Below are positions 1 to 43,595 of a DNA stretch of 64,000 bases, one piece after another. The notes beneath the pieces are model-generated. The model was not told where the DNA came from. It did no database searches and saw only the letters and a list, made by a program, of their open reading frames with translations. The position numbers and the translations under genes are program-made. Every line of letters begins with the position of its first letter. Position 1 is the stretch's first letter. The DNA is taken from assembly GCA_937967455.1 (NCBI GenBank), contig CALCJK010000012.1:62001-126000 (forward strand), written 5' to 3'. Source of the stretch: an uncultured bacterium. GTDB lineage: Bacteria; Bacteroidota; Ignavibacteria; UBA10030; BY39.

Positions 1-42
1 CACATGGTGATATGTACTGAGAATTCAGTTTATGTGATTTTC

Positions 43-6671: not shown

Positions 6672-7769
6672 TTACCTCTTTTTTAATTTTAAAGCATTCC
6701 TCAATTTTTTAAAACCCGGTTTAATTTTGTTGTATATCAAATCAATTCTTTGTTTATAAGGAATAAATGCGCTTTTCATTGCATTGATGGAAAGTTTTTC
6801 AAGATCATCAAAGTTTAAATTAAAAGTTTCGTAAGCAATCTTGTATTCTTTGGTCATTGTTGTGTCACTCATTAATCTGTCGTCAGTATTTAATGTTACT
6901 CTGAATCTATATTTATAATAAAGTCCGAATGGATGTTCTTCGAGACTTTTCACAGCACCGGTGTCAACATTACTTGTTAGACAGATTTCAAGAGGAATTC
7001 TTTTATCAAGTATATATTGTGCAAGATAACCCATTTTAACAATTTTGTTTGGTTCATGTTCATCGACTGCAATATCTTCAATCAAACGAGTTGCATGACC
7101 GATTCGATCTGCACCACACCATTGGATAGCTTGCCAGATAGATTCTTTCCCAAAAGCTTCACCAGCATGGATAGTAATATGAAAATTTTCTCTTTTTATA
7201 TAATTAAATGCTTCTAAATGTTTTTTTGGTGGGAAACCACCTTCTTCACCAGCAAGATCAAATCCAACTACACCTCTTTCTCTGAAGTCTATTGCAAGCT
7301 CTGCCATTTCTTGTGAGAGTTTCATATTTCGCATTGCTGAGATAATTAATCCATATTCAACTCCAAATTCTCGCTTTCCTTTTTCGAGTCCTTTTAACAC
7401 AGCATTTACAACCTCTTCCCAGTGTAATCCGTTCTTTGTGTGAAAGACAGGTGCAAAGCGTGTTTCTACATAAACAACGCCATCATTAAACATATCTTCA
7501 ATCATTTCGTATGCGACTCTTTCGAGTGCTTCCTCACTTTGCATTATTGCAGTTGTGTGTTCAAATCCTTCTAGGTAAAGTGGAAGGCTACCTCTTCTAG
7601 CTCCTCGATGGAACCATTCAGCAAGTTCACCAGGATCTAAAGTGGGAAGCTTTGTATATTTTTGATCTTTTGCTAACTCAATAATAGTTGATGGTCTCAA
7701 ACCTCCGTCCAGATGGTCGTGCAAAACAACTTTGGGCATAGCTCTAATTATTTTTTCTGTAAGTTTCAT
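6672..7769 (-). CDS. add: Adenosine deaminase
   Basis: 365-residue zinc amidohydrolase converting adenosine to inosine. HDHLDGG supplies the first two zinc histidines, HAGEAFG holds the third ligand histidine and catalytic glutamate, IGHATRL the catalytic histidine, and LNTDDRLMS the zinc/catalytic aspartates. LTSNVDTGAV matches the family's SN-x-T region. Length fits the adenosine branch, but adenine deaminase-like members cannot be excluded without phylogeny. It starts 13 bases after hutH stops, so the two are probably co-transcribed. Confidence 0.9.
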   Translation of the reverse strand: MKLTEKIIRAMPKVVLHDHLDGGLRPSTIIELAKDQKYTKLPTLDPGELAEWFHRGARRGSLPLYLEGFEHTTAIMQSEEALERVAYEMIEDMFNDGVVYVETRFAPVFHTKNGLHWEEVVNAVLKGLEKGKREFGVEYGLIISAMRNMKLSQEMAELAIDFRERGVVGFDLAGEEGGFPPKKHLEAFNYIKRENFHITIHAGEAFGKESIWQAIQWCGADRIGHATRLIEDIAVDEHEPNKIVKMGYLAQYILDKRIPLEICLTSNVDTGAVKSLEEHPFGLYYKYRFRVTLNTDDRLMSDTTMTKEYKIAYETFNLNFDDLEKLSINAMKSAFIPYKQRIDLIYNKIKPGFKKLRNALKLKKR

Positions 7770-35006: not shown

Positions 35007-35244
35007 ATGAAAGTATTTTTAATTAAGTTTACTAATTCTTCTGATATTCCATTTATATAATCCTATTCCTGCTATTTAGGATACAAACCCAACTTCTTTC
35101 CAATGCCTTTCTGCTCTTGAAAGATGTAAAAAATCTTGTTATGAAGTATATAAAGAGTCATGGTACTTAAGAATGGCATGTGTATCCGGATGTTATTTAG
35201 CATTTATGAATTGTCATCTTGGAGATCCAATAGGTATATTATAA
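35007..35244 (+). pseudogene. Six-cysteine secreted peptide A, broken by frameshift and amber codon
   Basis: ATG 35007 has GAAAGGG just upstream. Read in that frame it ends after 17 codons (35058-35060). Removing one A at 35021-35022 gives a fine signal peptide, MKVFLLSLLILLIF...PIPA, then an in-frame TAG at 35077-35079, then a mature peptide to TAA 35242-35244. The core has six cysteines spaced x6, x3, x13, x3, x6, identical to the intact peptide at 39085; 15 of the 37 core residues match. No alternative start lies between the TAG and the first cysteine. Either a recent pseudogene or partly sequencing error. Confidence 0.72.
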
Positions 35245-35258
35245 TTAGGTATTAATTT

Positions 35259-36209
35259 ATGTTATTTTTAGTAATTTTTTTGTTTGTAAGTTTAACTAAT
35301 TCTGCTTTAGCTCAAACAAAAAGCTATAACAGTAATCAAGCAGTAGGTTCGATTGAAAGAATTTTTTCAATTGAATCTACTGCTCAAGATTTATTATTGC
35401 AAATTGATGATATCCAGGTATTAAGTAATGAAGAAATATTACTTGCTGATAATTTAGATTTATCTGTTAAAGTATATAATAAGGAAGGAATATTAAAAAA
35501 GAAGTTATCTATTAATGAGATTAGGGATTTGAATTATAAATTTCCATTTCGAATCGCAAAATCCGATAATTATCTCGCAATTGTTGCTTACAACACTCCA
35601 TATATTTACATCTTATCGAGTAAATATGAATATTTAAGAACCATTAAAACTAAAGGTATTGTATTTGAAATTGGTATCGACAAGGATGAAAATATTTGGA
35701 CTGGAGTTAATACAGGTATAAAGTATTACACATTGTTTAAATATGATATTAACGGAAATGTTTTAGATACAATTCCTCTGAAGAATTCAACAGGTAATTT
35801 ATTACAAGATTTTTTTCATTTTGTTATTACTGAAGAAGGATATATTATAGTAACTTATATATATCTTAATAAAATTGAAATTTGGAAAACCAATGGAGAT
35901 TTCATAAGAGAATTTTCAATTAAAGATATGCCGTTAAAGCCGGAATATATAGATACAGAAGATATAAAAGTTCCCAAGGGAGTTATAATTGGCAGTGTAA
36001 CATACATTAATGAAGAGTTGTATTTATTAGGCGGACATTACACAGAAAAACCTTTTAAAGATATTTATGTGTATAATATTCTGGGTGAGTATATTAAGAA
36101 GTTAATTCTTTCAGATGCAGCATCACAAATTTATATCACAAGTAATAAATTTTTGTATGCAGTCGAAAATAAAAAAACCAAGGTTTCTAAATATAAGATT
36201 AATGATTAA
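35259..36209 (+). CDS. Secreted six-bladed beta-propeller-like protein A
   Basis: 316 residues with signal peptide 1-18 (ending ALAQ). The rest is all-beta with blade-like repeats of about 45 residues: VKVYNKEGILKKKL, IYILSSKYEYLRTI, LFKYDINGNVLDT, IEIWKTNGDFIREF, IYVYNILGEYIKKL. This matches NHL/TolB-like six-bladed propellers such as the BF3164-like family of Bacteroidota. Clear homologue of the copy B protein (IPLKNSTG / IPLKHSSG, YVYNILGEY / YVMNILGEF). No lipobox. Probably periplasmic, binding a peptide or partner; function unknown. 14 bases after the peptide A stop. Confidence 0.78.
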   Translation: MLFLVIFLFVSLTNSALAQTKSYNSNQAVGSIERIFSIESTAQDLLLQIDDIQVLSNEEILLADNLDLSVKVYNKEGILKKKLSINEIRDLNYKFPFRIAKSDNYLAIVAYNTPYIYILSSKYEYLRTIKTKGIVFEIGIDKDENIWTGVNTGIKYYTLFKYDINGNVLDTIPLKNSTGNLLQDFFHFVITEEGYIIVTYIYLNKIEIWKTNGDFIREFSIKDMPLKPEYIDTEDIKVPKGVIIGSVTYINEELYLLGGHYTEKPFKDIYVYNILGEYIKKLILSDAASQIYITSNKFLYAVENKKTKVSKYKIND

Positions 36210-36244: not shown

Positions 36245-36716
36245 ATGAAAAATAATATCAGGAGAATTTTTTTCTTCTTATTTATAATAATACTTTTTAC
36301 CATTGTTACTTATAATATTTCTAAGAAAGAAAGAATAGATATTAAGATTCATGAATTTGATTCAATTGTAAGGCAAATTATTGATTCTATAGTTATTAAT
36401 ACAAATAAAAAATTTTACGCAATAACATTTATTGATCCATTAGACTTTAATTGTCCACCGTGTTTCAACAATATAATTTCTTATTTGAGATTTATTAAAG
36501 ATAATGGTGTTGACCAGGATTTGCCAATATTTTAAAATGACAAGAGTTTTAATCAACTATGGTATAGATTTAGAGTTCAAAAGATTAAATAATTTAAAAG
36601 ATTTAGAAAAAAGTATTGTATTTATTATCAATAACAAAAAAGAAATTATTTGTAATTTTGAGTTTCCAATCACAGAAGAAGACAAAAGAATAATAATGTC
36701 TTATATTAATAATTAA
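36245..36716 (+). pseudogene. Membrane-anchored CxxC thioredoxin-like protein A, frameshifted
   Basis: The first frame (36245-36535) encodes an N-terminal transmembrane helix (IFFFLFIIILFTIVTY) and FNCPPCFNNII, a thioredoxin-type CPPC site. It stops just after DLPIF. The +1 frame continues at once with KMTRVLINYGIDLEFK and ends in IINNKKEIICNFEFP, matching VSDKNRKILFAG in the copy B protein. Deleting one T from the run at 36530-36533 joins the two into about 157 residues. Probable single-base frameshift. Programmed slippage or assembly error are possible. Confidence 0.68.
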
Positions 36717-36719
36717 ATT

Positions 36720-37589
36720 ATGATACGTATTAAGAATTTAACTAAGATCTACAAAAAAAATATAATTGCATTAAGAAATATAACAATAGATTTACCTAAT
36801 AATAATATTATTGCTATCCTGGGATTAAATGGGGCTGGTAAAAGCACTTTGATGAAAATCTTATTAGGTTTAGTAAAACCAACTTCTGGTTACGTAAATA
36901 TTAATGATAGTGGTGAGGTTTCTAAATTTAAATTCTCATATTTGCCGGAAAATTTTCTCATGGATAAAAACATTAAGGTCATTGACTTTTTACAGTTCTT
37001 TGGCAAACTTTATGGAATTGAAAAAAATAAATTAAATATTTCTATCGAACAATATTTGCATTTATTTGAAATCTATGATTTCAGAAATAAAAAAATGGGA
37101 GATTTGTCTAAAGGAATGAATATTAAAGTTGGACTCATACAAGCCCTTCTCAAAAAAGCTGATTATTATTTGTTAGATGAACCTACAGAGGGATTAGATC
37201 CAATTTCAAGATTGAAGATGAGAGAAATTATATTTAAGCTTAAATCGGAGGGTTCGACGGTTATAATTAATTCTCATATATTAGCAGAGTTAGAACTATT
37301 CGCAGATTTCTATGTAATATTGCACAAAGGTGAATTAATAGATTATAAGTTCTCAAAGGACCTTTCAGGTCAAGCTAAATATGAAGTTGAAATCTCAGAA
37401 TTACCCAAGGATAATTATTTTAATTATATGAAAAAAGATTCAAGCTGGATTTGTAATATTAATGGGATAGAAAACCTTAAAGATTTTATAACTCATATTG
37501 ACTCAATGTCCATAAAAATTTTAAATATTAAGCCTATAACATCTTCACTGGAAGAATATTTTAATTCGCTGATACAAAAGCAAATATGA
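36720..37589 (+). CDS. ABC transporter ATPase A (CcmA/DrrA-like)
   Basis: 289 residues. Walker A GLNGAGKST, Q-loop region YLPENFLM, signature LSKGMN (in place of LSGGQ), Walker B YYLLDEPTEGLDP, switch histidine INSHILAE. A roughly 70-residue C-terminal extension resembles that of ABC-2 exporter ATPases. Cytoplasmic, powers the two permeases that follow; overlaps permease 1 by 4 bases. Starts 3 bases after the thioredoxin-like pseudogene. Confidence 0.93.
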   Translation: MIRIKNLTKIYKKNIIALRNITIDLPNNNIIAILGLNGAGKSTLMKILLGLVKPTSGYVNINDSGEVSKFKFSYLPENFLMDKNIKVIDFLQFFGKLYGIEKNKLNISIEQYLHLFEIYDFRNKKMGDLSKGMNIKVGLIQALLKKADYYLLDEPTEGLDPISRLKMREIIFKLKSEGSTVIINSHILAELELFADFYVILHKGELIDYKFSKDLSGQAKYEVEISELPKDNYFNYMKKDSSWICNINGIENLKDFITHIDSMSIKILNIKPITSSLEEYFNSLIQKQI

Positions 37590-38386
37590 ATACTTTGATA
37601 AAATATACATTCAGAAATGTATTTTATAATCCCTTAGTTAATATTTTAAATTGTTTACAATTAATAATAATTATTATATGTACTTTTTTCTTGAATTTTA
37701 TTTATGACAGTTCTGGTCAAATTGCTATTGTAAAAATTTTCGGTAGTAATATATTGGCAAATATTTTCTTTAACGAGATACTTCCTACGTTAAGTTATCT
37801 TTTAATTTTTGTAATCCTTATCATTATAATAATCTCTTTTGGCAATTTATACACAAGGTTGTATAATAATCCATTCAATAAACTGATATTAATTAGTAAT
37901 ATCTCAAGGGTAAAATTAATTTTATGTGGTTTCTCAGGAATAAATTTGTATTTTTTAATTAATTTTGCATTCTTTTCAACCGCTCTATCTTTAATAATAT
38001 ATTTCAAAACTGATGATTTTATAACAGAAGCTTTCATTTTATTTACTAACCTTTTTCTTTTTTTGTTATCGCTTTCGGTTATTATTAATTTATTTGGTTT
38101 TTTATTAAAAAATGAATCAATATCTTCACTTATCGGTATATTATTTCCAGTTCTTATATCTCCATACATATCAAAAGTAGTAAATAATGCTGATCCTTTT
38201 TTAGAAAAAATTTTATTGGCGATATATTACTTAATTCCTCCTTTAACTATAGAACTAGATAATAGTTTAAAAATTTACGACACACATATTTATAATATGG
38301 ATAAGATATTATTAACGATACCTTATATTTTCTTTTATCTTTTAATAGTTTTATACCTCTTTAAAAAAGTAGACATTAATGATTAG
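37586..38386 (+). CDS. ABC-2-type permease A1
   Basis: 266 residues, six predicted membrane helices, very A+T-rich. Opens with NTLIKYTFRNVFYNPLVN, an amphipathic coupling segment also found at the start of permease B1 (TKINLRSLFINPV). No catalytic domain. Together with A2 and the ATPase it makes a one-ATPase/two-permease exporter like LanFEG-type immunity transporters. Overlaps the ATPase gene by 4 bases and the next gene by 8. Confidence 0.72.
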   Translation: MNTLIKYTFRNVFYNPLVNILNCLQLIIIIICTFFLNFIYDSSGQIAIVKIFGSNILANIFFNEILPTLSYLLIFVILIIIIISFGNLYTRLYNNPFNKLILISNISRVKLILCGFSGINLYFLINFAFFSTALSLIIYFKTDDFITEAFILFTNLFLFLLSLSVIINLFGFLLKNESISSLIGILFPVLISPYISKVVNNADPFLEKILLAIYYLIPPLTIELDNSLKIYDTHIYNMDKILLTIPYIFFYLLIVLYLFKKVDIND

Positions 38387-39038
38387 TGCGAATAATAATG
38401 AATTAAAAAAGTATATTATTTGGTTTGTAATATTTTTTATTTCAACAAATCTGTTTGCAGGATATATTTATTCCACAAATAAAATTATACAGGAAAAAAT
38501 AATTGAACAAATTGAAAAGAAAATTTCCGATAAATATATTGTGGAAATGACAAGATTAGGGATGGAAACCAATCGTAACAATAAGGCGTTTGTTTTGTAC
38601 ATGACAATTAATTTTGCTTTTCAAAAATTGTATTCGTTGTTTTTATTTATTCTTATATGTTGGGGGTTATTTAGCTTGTGGTTTGATACTCGTTTATCTT
38701 TTAAAAACATTACAATTGCTGGTTTAACATCTAGTTTTATTCTAGCAGTTGGTACCTTAATAGATATGGCTTTGATTTTCATCACTGGTCAAATAGGTTC
38801 GCATTTTGGGTTAACATTATTTATAAATACTTTCGGATTACATCATTTATTAACTCGTATCATCCGAAATTTTAATATTATAACTCTTCTTTTCATTGGA
38901 TATTTTTCATTACTGGTAAGCAAACTATATAATGAGAAATTGATTGTACTCTTTATTTTATCATTTATTTCTGTTTTAAGCTTAATTCTTGTTACATATT
39001 TAGTTGGCATTCATTTAGATTTGCATACTGGGTTTTAG
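38379..39038 (+). CDS. Membrane protein / permease A2 (Yip1-like layout)
   Basis: 219 residues, about six hydrophobic helices, with a charged extracytoplasmic stretch after the first. It is a homologue of the last protein of copy B: EMTRLGMETNRNNKAF / EMTEKGINAIIHNPAM after helix 1, and NTFGLHHLL / NYYSLHPFI later. The family is not certain; a Yip1-type or second ABC permease role fits. Last gene of copy A; a short gap leads to peptide B. Confidence 0.62.
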   Translation: MISANNNELKKYIIWFVIFFISTNLFAGYIYSTNKIIQEKIIEQIEKKISDKYIVEMTRLGMETNRNNKAFVLYMTINFAFQKLYSLFLFILICWGLFSLWFDTRLSFKNITIAGLTSSFILAVGTLIDMALIFITGQIGSHFGLTLFINTFGLHHLLTRIIRNFNIITLLFIGYFSLLVSKLYNEKLIVLFILSFISVLSLILVTYLVGIHLDLHTGF

Positions 39039-39084: not shown

Positions 39085-39327
39085 ATGATAATAGTAATTT
39101 TAAATTACAAGAAAATATATTATGCTATTTTGATGTTGGCATTTTTAACATCTAATAATTTTACAATCAATCAAGTTTACGCAGTAGAAGAAAGCTGGTG
39201 TTTGATAGCTTTAAGAAGATGCGTAGCTGAGTGTAAACGTACATTTGGTGAATCTAACCCAATTACATGGAGCTGTATCACAGGTTGTAATATAGCTTAT
39301 TTAAATTGCATATATGATATTTTTTAA
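39085..39327 (+). CDS. Secreted six-cysteine peptide B
   Basis: 80 residues. Sec signal peptide about 1-33 (hydrophobic YYAILMLAFLTS, cleavage near QVYA), leaving about 47 residues. Six cysteines spaced x6, x3, x13, x3, x6. The spacing is mirror-symmetric; in a helix the first three fall at i, i+7, i+11 and the last three at j, j+4, j+11, so they can staple two antiparallel helices. The inner C-x3-C...C-x3-C pair recalls plant alpha-hairpinins. I know no named family. Likely roles: bacteriocin-like toxin, signal peptide or metal/redox peptide, processed and exported by the genes after it. Confidence 0.7.
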   Translation: MIIVILNYKKIYYAILMLAFLTSNNFTINQVYAVEESWCLIALRRCVAECKRTFGESNPITWSCITGCNIAYLNCIYDIF

Positions 39328-39371: not shown

Positions 39372-40340
39372 ATGAAGTTAATATCTTTTCTTTTAATAAT
39401 TATAGGATCTTTATTATCTCAAGAAGCGAATAATCAGCATCAAAATCTATTTGTTGCTAGGGCACAACATTTATTAACGATCACAAGCTCAAATAAAGAT
39501 ACATTATTTCGTGCATATGATTTATACGTCAGTCCAGGGGGAGATATTTATATTGCAGATCAAGTCGAAGATTGTATAAAGATATTTAATCAAAATGGCA
39601 AATTGATAAAAAAGTTTGGCAAGACTGGGAGTAAACCTGGCGAGTTTAATACAATAGGTGAAATAGCTATATCAGAAAATTATATTGCTATATCAGATTA
39701 CATATCCTCCCGACTGCAAATTTTTTCAAAGGATTTTAAGCATATTCGAACAATTTATGCACAAGGAATTGTTTTTGATTTGGCTTTTGATTCTGATGAA
39801 TTTTTATGGGTTGGGGCATTTACTGGCAAGAAAAACAAAACCCTATTTAAATATTCTAAAGAGAGCAATAAAATCATACAAATTATTCCTCTAAAGCATT
39901 CGAGTGGTGATCAGTTTAAAGATATATTTTTTCTCGCAATTTCTAAAGATGGCTATGTGGTTATAGCATATCGTGTTTTAAATAGAATCGAAGTTTGGGA
40001 TAAGTCAGGTAAGTTTATTCGAGATTTTCAAGTACCAGGACTGAAATCGGAAGCTGATAGTAAAAAGATTTCGACAGGATTATTTTCAAGTACCAGAGTA
40101 CCAGATGGAATAATTTTTGGTTTTTGTAGTGTAAACGATTCTGGAGATATTTTTCTAATTGGGGGGAGCTACTCTGAAAATCCTGCAAGGGATTTATATG
40201 TAATGAATATCTTAGGAGAATTTCATGCAAGAATTACAATGCCAGAGAAAGTATGGAAATTTTATATGCAAGATAAAACAAATATTTATGTAGTAAGTGG
40301 GAAAGAGCTTAATTTTGTGAAGAAATATTTATTAAGATAA
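39372..40340 (+). CDS. Secreted six-bladed beta-propeller-like protein B
   Basis: 322 residues, signal peptide about 1-18. Blade repeats typical of NHL propellers: VSPGGDIYIADQ...IKIFNQNGKLIKKFGKTG, IAISDYISSRLQIFSK, LFKYSKESNKII, IEVWDKSGKFIRDF, DLYVMNILGEFHARI. Homologue of the copy A propeller across its length. Such proteins lie next to thioredoxin-like and small peptide genes in other Bacteroidota, from memory. Two unpaired-looking cysteines (VEDCIK, FGFCSV). Probable periplasmic binding partner of the peptide. Stop shares a base with the next start. Confidence 0.8.
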   Translation: MKLISFLLIIIGSLLSQEANNQHQNLFVARAQHLLTITSSNKDTLFRAYDLYVSPGGDIYIADQVEDCIKIFNQNGKLIKKFGKTGSKPGEFNTIGEIAISENYIAISDYISSRLQIFSKDFKHIRTIYAQGIVFDLAFDSDEFLWVGAFTGKKNKTLFKYSKESNKIIQIIPLKHSSGDQFKDIFFLAISKDGYVVIAYRVLNRIEVWDKSGKFIRDFQVPGLKSEADSKKISTGLFSSTRVPDGIIFGFCSVNDSGDIFLIGGSYSENPARDLYVMNILGEFHARITMPEKVWKFYMQDKTNIYVVSGKELNFVKKYLLR

Positions 40341-41233
40341 TGATATTTTTTTTAAAAAAATTTTTGCCTCTGTTTACAGGTTTATTAATAATCTGTACTA
40401 ATATTTTAAAGTTAATCTATTTTGAAGATTTTTTATTTTCTTTAATATGGAACTCTATTGTATTAACTTTTTTATTATTTCTTTTGGGATGTGCGAGCGC
40501 ATTAATGTTAATAATAAGGAAACAAATTTATCTATTTGCAATTATTCTTTTAGTTTTATTTTCATTTGAGTTATTCAATTATTCACATAAAACTCTCAAT
40601 ACTGGCTATTTTTCAGGAAGTTTGTTTTTGAGAACTGAGTATCTCATTGCTTTGCTTTTTTTATTTAATTTAACTGCATTAACTGCATATGTGTTTTCTA
40701 AAAAAGAATTTATGTACAGAAATAATATCTCTAACTTATTAATATCTATATTTATAATTGCATTTTTATTGTGGTTTGAATATGAATTTATTTCAAGCAA
40801 CTTTAAACTAAAAACAAGGCAAGAAAATGAAATCCAGATTCTAACCCAAATTTCTAATTCTTTTAATGATATTGATAAAGAGAAATTTGTAAAGCTCGAA
40901 TATTTTTCAATAAATAGTTATATTGATTGTAAACCATGTTTTGAAAAATTACTTAAATTTAATAATTTTGTAATTGAGAATAAAGAGATCTTTGAAAAAA
41001 TTTCAATTTTAGGTATTATAATAAATGATTCTAATGATGATAGCGTCCATGTATTGGAGAGGATTAATAAATGGAAAGAAACTTACAACATTCAAATTCC
41101 AATAAAATTCTTTTGTCTAAAAAATTATGATGAAAATTTCCAGAATTATATCATCGTTTCTGATAAAAATCGTAAAATATTATTTGCAGGTAAATGGCAT
41201 CCTAGAATTATAAATATTTTAAAAAAATTATAA
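40340..41233 (+). CDS. Polytopic membrane protein with C-terminal CxxC thioredoxin-like domain B
   Basis: 297 residues. Residues 1-155 hold about four to five membrane helices (FLPLFTGLLIICTNIL, IVLTFLLFLLGCASALML, IYLFAIILLVLFSF, LIALLFLFNLTALTAYV, LISIFIIAFLLWF). The outer domain has INSYIDCKPCFEKLLKF, a CKPC redox site, and ends with IIVSDKNRKILFAGKWHP. The layout recalls MauE/DoxX-like membrane domains fused to a redoxin, which support disulfide formation or reduction. Likely acts on the six-Cys peptide. Copy A has only one membrane helix. Direction of electron flow is not decided. Confidence 0.75.
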   Translation: MIFFLKKFLPLFTGLLIICTNILKLIYFEDFLFSLIWNSIVLTFLLFLLGCASALMLIIRKQIYLFAIILLVLFSFELFNYSHKTLNTGYFSGSLFLRTEYLIALLFLFNLTALTAYVFSKKEFMYRNNISNLLISIFIIAFLLWFEYEFISSNFKLKTRQENEIQILTQISNSFNDIDKEKFVKLEYFSINSYIDCKPCFEKLLKFNNFVIENKEIFEKISILGIIINDSNDDSVHVLERINKWKETYNIQIPIKFFCLKNYDENFQNYIIVSDKNRKILFAGKWHPRIINILKKL

Positions 41234-41249
41234 AGATAATCTTTCTTTA

Positions 41250-42161
41250 ATGCAAGAAAAATTTATTGAGATCAAGAATTTGAACAAAACCTATCGTGGT
41301 AAAATTAAGGCTTTGAAAAATGTTTCGCTGGATATTTACCAGGGAGAAGTTCTGGCATTGATAGGACTAAACGGTGCAGGTAAATCAACACTTGTGAAAA
41401 TTTTGCTTCAGCTTGTAATACCTGATTCAGGAGAGATTTTATTTAACACAAAATTATTCGACAGATCAGGTATTAAGAATTCAATAGCATATTTGCCTGA
41501 GTTGTTTAGAATCCCTCCGGATATGAAAGCATATACATTTTTAAAATATATGGGAGAATTAAGTGGGTTGAATAAAAGTGAAATCCAAAAAAAAATAATA
41601 GACATCTCACATACACTTCAACTTGAAAAATGGTTAAATAAACCAGCTAAAAAATTTTCTAAAGGTATGATGCTAAAATTAGGAATTGCTCAAACTCTTT
41701 TAGATGATTATTTATTATATGTCTTGGATGAACCAACTGAAGGTCTTGATCCTATCGCCCGAAGAACAGTAAGAGATATAATCAAATCCTTACAAGATAA
41801 GGGCTGTACTTTTATTATTAACTCACATATGTTATCCGAAATTGAGCTTGTTGCTGATAGGTTTGCCATAATTCACCAGGGTGAGATAATAAATATAGGC
41901 AAAGTTAATGAGTTGTTACGTGGGAAGCCTGTATATGAAGTGGTTGCAAATGTAAATCCAAATTTAACTCAATGGCAATTTTATGAATATAATTCATTAT
42001 GGAAATGTTCTGTTAGTACACCTGAAGAATTAAATTTGCTCTTAAATGATTTAAACAATTCCTCGGTTAAAGTGCATAATATTTCAATGAATACACTTAA
42101 TTTAGAAGATTTATTTTTACAAAATATCTTTGCAAGAGATGTGGACAATAACAAAAATTAA
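41250..42161 (+). CDS. ABC transporter ATPase B (CcmA/DrrA-like)
   Basis: 303 residues. Walker A GLNGAGKST, signature FSKGMM (not LSGGQ; the SKGM form is shared with copy A), Walker B LYVLDEPTEGLDP, switch histidine INSHMLSE. A C-terminal extension of about 75 residues is as in copy A. Ends inside the next gene, consistent with tight coupling to the permease. Exports or expels the cassette's product; substrate inferred, not shown. Confidence 0.94.
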   Translation: MQEKFIEIKNLNKTYRGKIKALKNVSLDIYQGEVLALIGLNGAGKSTLVKILLQLVIPDSGEILFNTKLFDRSGIKNSIAYLPELFRIPPDMKAYTFLKYMGELSGLNKSEIQKKIIDISHTLQLEKWLNKPAKKFSKGMMLKLGIAQTLLDDYLLYVLDEPTEGLDPIARRTVRDIIKSLQDKGCTFIINSHMLSEIELVADRFAIIHQGEIINIGKVNELLRGKPVYEVVANVNPNLTQWQFYEYNSLWKCSVSTPEELNLLLNDLNNSSVKVHNISMNTLNLEDLFLQNIFARDVDNNKN

Positions 42162-42924
42162 TTTAAGAAGTTTATTTATAAACCCAGTTATAATTTTGAT
42201 ATACATAATTGAAGTACCTGTATTATTGTTATTAATTTTTGGAATTAAGATAAATGTCGAAAACGGTATTGTAAATTCTCTTATATTTTTTAACAGAAAT
42301 ATAGATGATGTGGGTATATTAATTAATTTTAGTTTGCCTTATTTATTACAAATTTATATTTTTATACATGTCTTTTTGTATATAATAACGACCGGGGGAA
42401 TTACATTGAGTATCATAAAAAGCCCAATATCTTCTATCATTTTAACCAAAGAAATTACAAGAAATCAATATATAATTGCACAATATTTGAGTTATAACTT
42501 TTTTATAATTATACATCTTTTAGTTTTTGGAACATTGATATTTTTAGTTTTATACATAAAAACTCATCTTTTATTATTTGAAGAGGTTTTTTTACCTTGC
42601 TTGCATATTACCTTTTTAATGAGCTCATATACAATGATTTATTCACTATTGGGTGTGATAGTTGATAGTGAAACTTTCGTTCTTGCGTTCGGATTCATAA
42701 TTTATTTTTACTTAGGTTATCATATAGAAAATATCACAATTGAAAATGGTTTATTTTTTAATATTATAAAATATATTTTTCCACCAATTTTAAGTATTAA
42801 GGAATACAATATTATTATTGACATTGATTCCTTAGATTTATTCAAAATTGGGCTGAATATATTTTACATTGTTATCTACCTTTTAATAACAATACTGATT
42901 TATAGGAAGAAAGATTTATCGTAA
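42139..42924 (+). CDS. ABC-2-type permease B1
   Basis: About 261 residues from ATG 42139; a TTG three codons upstream (42130) is possible. It overlaps the ATPase gene by 23 bases. Six predicted membrane helices. Begins MWTITKINLRSLFINPV, like permease A1. ILTKEITRNQYIIAQYLSY resembles the cytoplasmic loop of ABC-2 permeases. No other domain. Confidence 0.72.
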   Translation: MWTITKINLRSLFINPVIILIYIIEVPVLLLLIFGIKINVENGIVNSLIFFNRNIDDVGILINFSLPYLLQIYIFIHVFLYIITTGGITLSIIKSPISSIILTKEITRNQYIIAQYLSYNFFIIIHLLVFGTLIFLVLYIKTHLLLFEEVFLPCLHITFLMSSYTMIYSLLGVIVDSETFVLAFGFIIYFYLGYHIENITIENGLFFNIIKYIFPPILSIKEYNIIIDIDSLDLFKIGLNIFYIVIYLLITILIYRKKDLS

Positions 42925-42932
42925 TGGTGTAA

Positions 42933-43595
42933 ATGATTAAGTTTTTATATAATATAAATAGTTTGTTAAATGATTACCATAAAAATTTGTTATTTATATT
43001 TTATCTTGCAACTGTTTTTATCTTGAATTATCTTCTTTTGTCGAATGAGGATTATCTTAGGGTAGTATTTGAGAAGGCAAGTACTTCGGTAGAGAATAAA
43101 GAAATGATAGAAATGACAGAAAAGGGCATAAATGCAATTATACATAATCCCGCTATGATTTTACTATTAAGTTTAGAACAGGTTTGGAAAAATGCCTATT
43201 CAATATCATTGCTAATCATTATGTGCTATTTGTTTGTGTCATTTTATACGAACAACTGGATCTCGATCTTAAAAATATATTATCTGTTTATGTCAGTAAT
43301 AATAATTTTAATATTTGGGTTAATTTTAAGCTTTAGTTTAAAGTATCTAACTTATATTTCAATTTCATGGTTTGAATTTGGAACTTATTTCAACTATTAT
43401 TCACTACATCCATTCATTAAAAAACTTTCGAGCGGGTATGAAGCGTTTACAATTTTATTTTTATTTGCCTCTTCAAAAATTATCTCAGTTCAGTATCAAG
43501 AAAAATTTATAGCAGTTTTTTTTCTTATAAATTTATCCTGGCTAATAATTATAATAATTTCTTATTTTGCTGGTTTTAGTGTTTCGCTAAGTTGA
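42933..43595 (+). CDS. Membrane protein / permease B2
   Basis: 220 residues, about six hydrophobic helices with an extracytoplasmic charged stretch after helix 1 (VFEKASTSVENKEMIEMTEKG). Homologue of A2 by the shared EMT-x-x-G and N-x-x-x-LH motifs. Second membrane partner of the exporter or a Yip1-like accessory. Its 3' end overlaps the convergent hemY gene by 9 bases, so there is no room for a separate terminator. Confidence 0.6.
   Translation: MIKFLYNINSLLNDYHKNLLFIFYLATVFILNYLLLSNEDYLRVVFEKASTSVENKEMIEMTEKGINAIIHNPAMILLLSLEQVWKNAYSISLLIIMCYLFVSFYTNNWISILKIYYLFMSVIIILIFGLILSFSLKYLTYISISWFEFGTYFNYYSLHPFIKKLSSGYEAFTILFLFASSKIISVQYQEKFIAVFFLINLSWLIIIIISYFAGFSVSLS

Follow-up and report, generated by a model that had tools for sequence, protein, structure and literature searches.

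The window, as we call the whole 64,000-nucleotide stretch of uncultured Ignavibacteria DNA analysed here, carries two tandem cassettes on one strand, each headed by a gene for a six-cysteine peptide. Cassette A is partly broken, and cassette B holds the intact peptide.

Cassette A
35008..35244, + strand: broken peptide gene; six-cysteine core in frame (35080-35241), signal part disrupted
35259..36209, + strand: propeller, open; E 5e-52 to the propeller of cassette B
36245..36716, + strand: thioredoxin-like gene (CPPC), frameshifted; ORFs 36245-36535 and 36504-36716 lie in two frames
36720..37589, + strand: ABC ATPase, open, all catalytic motifs kept
37586..38386, + strand: permease, open (from the ORF list and position)
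38379..39038, + strand: membrane protein, open (from the ORF list and position)
Cassette B
39085..39327, + strand: precursor of the predicted hairpin peptide, 80 aa; ATG start, weak AGGA upstream
39085-39183, + strand: predicted signal peptide of this ORF, typical Sec, cleavage after VYA
39184-39324, + strand: mature six-cysteine peptide of this ORF, 47 residues (34-80)
39372..40340, + strand: secreted six-bladed NHL/DUF5128 beta-propeller (PF17170, 28.6 bits against a gathering cut-off of 22.9)
40340..41233, + strand: membrane protein with a four-TM (MauE-like) part and a thioredoxin fold, CKPC
41250..42161, + strand: ABC ATPase (PF00005, E 1.5e-26); Walker A/B intact, E-loop (YLPE), SKG signature
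42139..42924, + strand: ABC-2 type permease (from position; its relative in L091 matches ABC2_membrane_2, E 2.6e-8)
42933..43595, + strand: further membrane protein of no known family, conserved in the relatives G001, G003, G009, G151 and G065

The mature peptide of cassette B reads VEESW-C-LIALRR-C-VAE-C-KRTFGESNPITWS-C-ITG-C-NIAYLN-C-IYDIF. An earlier note on this DNA had described the ORF at 39085-39327 as encoding C-x6-C-x3-C-x13-C-x3-C-x6-C, with a broken copy of equal spacing that shares 15 of 37 core residues. Both statements were confirmed: the spacing is 6-3-13-3-6, and the copy at 35080-35241 agrees with it in spacing and in that number of core residues. When all six frames of the window were searched for C6C3C(8-17)C3C6C, only these two copies matched, and the pattern arose in none of 300 residue shuffles. 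The peptide ORF and its broken copy are not due to chance. In cassette A the signal portion is interrupted by frameshift/stop codons, and the six-cysteine core downstream of them is uninterrupted.

The other proteins of cassette B were assigned with varying certainty. Profile comparison related the propeller to NHL propellers in the PDB (E 7e-47). The 40340..41233 protein itself gave no match to MauE (PF07291); proteins at the same position in relatives did (E 1.9e-12 to 3.9e-17), and the MauE gathering cut-off was exceeded beside nine related cassettes. Its AlphaFold2 model contains a thioredoxin fold (Foldseek probability 1.00 to SdbA, ResA and StoA), but as the confidence of the model was low (58), it was used for the thioredoxin half only. 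The ATPase scored 166.3 bits against the lantibiotic-protection family TIGR03740, far under the curated cut-off of 309.75. The thioredoxin-like gene of cassette A was called by eye, by comparison with the thioredoxins of L101 and L091.

The peptide family, its cysteines and its predicted fold

Relatives were sought first with the neighbouring propeller gene and then with peptide profiles. About 30 were found, in Ignavibacteria and in other classes of the same phylum. Their distribution is patchy: genomes with relatives number 16 out of 98 for the order, 19 out of 391 sampled for the class, 11 out of 396 sampled for the phylum and 11 out of 245 for a second class (these samples overlap). Named hosts are Ignavibacteriae bacterium BY39 (the genus of the window, judged from the match of G001), Ignavibacteriae fen_1255 and Bacteroidetes bacterium OSL_B.mb.4. 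An NHL protein of a DPANN genome (L102), which a contig scan with a closer propeller alignment yielded along with these three, was rejected as unrelated. No family in Pfam, NCBIfam or PHROGs covers the peptide at cut-off; the matches to DUF3903 (0.038), TIGR04117 (0.014), NF007463 (0.0028) and BSMAP (2e-4) involved single members only and were discounted as CxxxC helices matching by chance. A search of the open-access literature did not find the peptide cassette. No relatives of the peptide were found in phages, nor any of the propeller in plasmids or viral contigs (two weak plasmid hits to the propeller were judged generic), and hence we claim no origin from a mobile element.

The tabulated set comprises 33 sequences, both window copies included. 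Six cysteines are present in 28 of them, and 25 of these 28 keep both arms (6-3 and 3-6) exactly, so the free variation of spacing among homologues that the earlier note had named as a refutation was not observed. The loop between the exact arms measures 8, 9, 10, 12, 13, 15 or 17 residues. Mature peptides have about 36-55 residues and a charge from +1 to -9, i.e. neutral to acidic. In close pairs, dN/dS of the mature part was about 0.12, 0.29, 0.27 and 0.54, mostly <0.3, which indicates that the peptide gene is under purifying selection. Several members from the second class (e.g. L117:4096-4338) share an acidic loop with a fixed length of 17, resembling G(D/E)TxxDGxxR, which is likely a functional epitope.

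It had also been proposed that the cysteines occupy one face of each helix and that the pairs C1-C6, C2-C5 and C3-C4 form naturally. At a helical phase of 100 degrees per residue, the cysteines of each helix lie within 40 degrees of one another, and the residue numbers of all three pairs sum to 48; among the 15 possible pairings, the nested one alone has such a constant register. Departures from the common pattern are coupled in the same way. C1 and C6 are both absent from G600b, and they are shifted together in G032 and G020; C3 and C4 are both absent from G744, leaving C6C...C6C; and G073 has gained an extra symmetric inner CxxxC pair. The membership of G744 is weak (E 6e-4), and a same-strand lipoprotein downstream of it resembles the propeller of related cassettes. 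The chance that two losses both strike one of the three nested pairs out of fifteen is about 4%, and the symmetric gain in G073 lends support beyond this figure. The exceptions are G151 with 6-3-13-4-6, where one residue was added between C4 and C5, and G022, which carries a seventh cysteine. Metal binding by the cysteines was set aside, since the coupled losses of C1 with C6 or of C3 with C4 fit disulphide pairs better, though no metal test was made.

For the mature 47 residues, whose structure prediction the earlier note had suggested as a check, AlphaFold2 (MSA of 4) gave a confident helical hairpin with helices at 5-21 and 26-44 (mean pLDDT 92.1, pTM 0.71). The fixed arms, the paired departures of cysteines and this confident model together make the hairpin and the nested pairing C1-C6, C2-C5, C3-C4 well supported as a reading of the sequences, the disulphide bonds themselves being inferred. 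The suspected likeness to alpha-hairpinins was borne out by the model: its best PDB match by TM score was Luffin P1 (0.73/0.73), and a second alpha-hairpinin, the vicilin leader hairpin (TM 0.54), was among the 11 Foldseek PDB hits; for neither was the E-value significant, the fold being small. The sequence profile of the peptide gave only sub-threshold hits in the PDB (best E 0.04), several of which are CxxxC helical hairpins. As the predicted fold is alike, yet the profile remains below threshold, the likeness to the plant peptides is best read as convergence.

Operon context and loss of the peptide

Almost without exception, the gene that follows directly on the peptide gene encodes a six-bladed NHL/DUF5128 propeller, which in many relatives is a lipoprotein. 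Downstream of it, Ignavibacteria cassettes commonly encode a MauE-type/thioredoxin membrane protein, the ATPase and permease of an ABC transporter, and one more membrane protein. Cassettes of the second class have a reduced set, consisting of the peptide, a lipoprotein propeller, an ATPase and a permease, without MauE or thioredoxin. Motifs were intact in all 20 cassette ATPases compared; the Q-loop position is E in 19 and D in one.

Several other arrangements were noted. In G463 (L117:3841-4338), two hairpin peptides stand in tandem ahead of one propeller, possibly as a two-peptide system. The genome of the window also encodes, on contig C2 (L086, minus strand), a distinct small secreted protein with 13 cysteines (7013-7279), which has no match in Pfam or NCBIfam and whose gene immediately precedes those for a DUF5128 propeller lipoprotein and a thioredoxin-like protein. 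In G035 (L042:6063-6320), a cysteine-rich secreted small protein that is not a hairpin lies between two propeller genes. The pairing of a propeller with a cysteine-rich peptide may be a wider theme. Propellers of the DUF5128 type that adjoin cytochrome clusters (L087, L088) were considered to have no relation to the cassette.

Decay has affected the peptide in two instances. In cassette A the peptide and thioredoxin genes are broken, and the propeller, ATPase, permease and membrane protein genes remain open. In G001, of the same genus, the same fumarase/hemG locus holds a peptide relic that has lost cysteines and bears a deletion and a stop, and the five genes downstream of it are open. Such a pattern is expected of a costly or dispensable peptide against which the other genes protect, although two cases are few. 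A third, more decayed cassette, with fragments of a propeller, ABC, permease and thioredoxin, lies on contig C2 of the window's genome (L086, 2471-4816, minus strand). The patchy distribution, the tandem cassettes, the decayed cassette on C2 and the tandem peptides of G463 fit birth-and-death of competition genes.

Possible function and known counterparts

Plant alpha-hairpinins (Luffin P1, EcAMP1, BWI-2c, vicilin leader peptides) are helix-loop-helix peptides with nested CxxxC pairs, as predicted here. Their core is defined as CX3CX4-20CX3C (PMC11591084). Nearly all members of the family meet this definition, with the inner four cysteines spaced 3-(8..17)-3, and, as far as prediction goes, they meet the helix-loop-helix requirement as well; the C1-C4/C2-C3 bonds of that core agree with the paired gains and losses of cysteines, in the absence of disulphide data. 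In contrast to the plant peptides, however, the present ones show no significant sequence similarity, carry an extra outer x6 pair on both arms, are not cationic, and are bacterial products with a Sec leader, encoded in an operon with a propeller and an ABC transporter. Homology to alpha-hairpinins or a plant precursor was thus not supported (PDB profile E of at least 0.04; bacterial hosts).

The arms of glycocins have CX6C spacing. Two CX6C arms in a predicted helical hairpin are likewise found in our peptide, and G744 keeps exactly C6C...C6C. Glycocins (sublancin, glycocin F, thermoglycocin) are bacterial helix-loop-helix peptides with nested disulphides (PMC12457901). In the present peptide, a third nested pair lies inside, where glycocins have a C-terminal loop. 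No glycosyltransferase was seen in the window cassettes or the neighbourhoods inspected, and no C39-peptidase domain was matched in the cassette ABC transporter, the peptide having a Sec-type signal instead. As homology and cluster features fail, membership in either group is not claimed. The earlier note had held that such a fold in a bacterial cassette would be new. This is true of the family, its three-pair arm spacing and its operon; the idea of a stapled bacterial helical hairpin is known from the glycocins.

We tentatively favour, at somewhat short of even confidence, a disulphide-stapled bacteriocin-like peptide accompanied by a LanI/LanFE-like protection unit; killing, binding and protection are all inferred, and no activity has been shown. 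The precursor would be exported by Sec, and its mature part would form two antiparallel helices with three nested disulphides. In Ignavibacteria, the MauE-type membrane protein and thioredoxin of the cassette would make or shuffle these bonds, but they are not universal, as the second-class cassettes lack them; MauE has been found with cysteine-rich precursors in candidate RiPP clusters (PMC7794033). The peptide would act outside the producer as an antagonist, the co-encoded propeller would bind it, and the E-loop ABC-2 transporter would clear it from the producer's own membrane. LanF carries an E-loop. This putative division of labour between propeller and transporter resembles that of a LanI lipoprotein and LanFEG, the precedent in lantibiotic immunity (PMC5786555; PMC4828448), where a peptide gene is likewise accompanied by a lipoprotein and an ABC ATPase/permease with an E-loop ATPase. 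It differs in that the lipoprotein is a propeller, the peptide is apparently unmodified except for disulphides, and the ATPase remains under the curated cut-off, so far under it that this counts against a LanFE-like unit. The protection idea rests on cassette A and G001, where the peptide is broken and the propeller and transporter genes are open.

Doubt about the bacteriocin-like role arises from the neutral to acidic charge, in which these peptides differ from classical membrane-active bacteriocins, and from the absence of any dedicated outer-membrane exit route among the encoded functions. It also arises from the fair match of the MauE, propeller and cysteine-rich subunit set to a methylamine-dehydrogenase-like complex. 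That enzyme has a cysteine-rich light chain and a propeller heavy chain, with MauE and MauD serving the disulphides, and its mau operon, like the Ignavibacteria cassettes, places a cysteine-rich small secreted protein, a propeller, MauE and a thioredoxin side by side. The peptide could accordingly be a small structural subunit joined to the propeller in a stable periplasmic complex, its disulphides formed by MauE/thioredoxin, with the ABC transporter aiding assembly or supplying substrate. This is unlikely, though to be taken seriously: besides the adjacent quartet, the position of the peptide just upstream of the propeller, the neutral or acidic charge and the other cysteine-rich peptides adjoining propellers all suit it. 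However, the propeller here is a six-bladed DUF5128/NHL one, an ABC transporter is present, and no Trp is invariant in alignment A2, so the tryptophan pair needed for the tryptophylquinone (TTQ) of the light chain is not conserved. The second class dispenses with MauE and thioredoxin, and loss of the peptide from G001 and cassette A, with the propeller and other genes left open, is unexpected for subunits of one complex.

A secreted signal (pheromone), with the propeller as sensor or carrier and the transporter importing, exporting or clearing it, would agree with a conserved, non-cationic peptide under purifying selection and with the AraC-type HTH gene seen by inspection just upstream of two second-class cassettes (G716 and G717). 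We regard it as distinctly improbable, as no regulator was seen beside most cassettes or in the window, and the distribution is patchy. Still less probable is a peptide that serves the ABC-2 transporter as an accessory regulator or cofactor, the transporter itself exporting or maturing something else in a NosDFY-like manner; within the operon, the ATPase and permease match the propeller in conservation, but neither a candidate cargo gene nor a metalloenzyme was seen in the cassette, and the transporter is retained after the peptide is lost.

Returning to the bacteriocin-like reading, its broader form, which we put forward a shade more hesitantly, is that these are a new class of Sec-secreted hairpin bacteriocins of Ignavibacteria/Bacteroidota with triple nested disulphides, each with a propeller receptor and an ABC protection unit, as a convergent bacterial counterpart of plant alpha-hairpinins. 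In any event, we describe a previously unannotated family of secreted peptides whose disulphide connectivity can be read from coupled gains and losses of cysteines, and whose conserved set of partners yields testable predictions on binding, folding and protection. A hairpin with loops of 8-17 residues on fixed staples would be a ready natural scaffold, and if the peptides are antagonistic, they enlarge, by one peptide class, the short list of bacteriocins known from this bacterial group.
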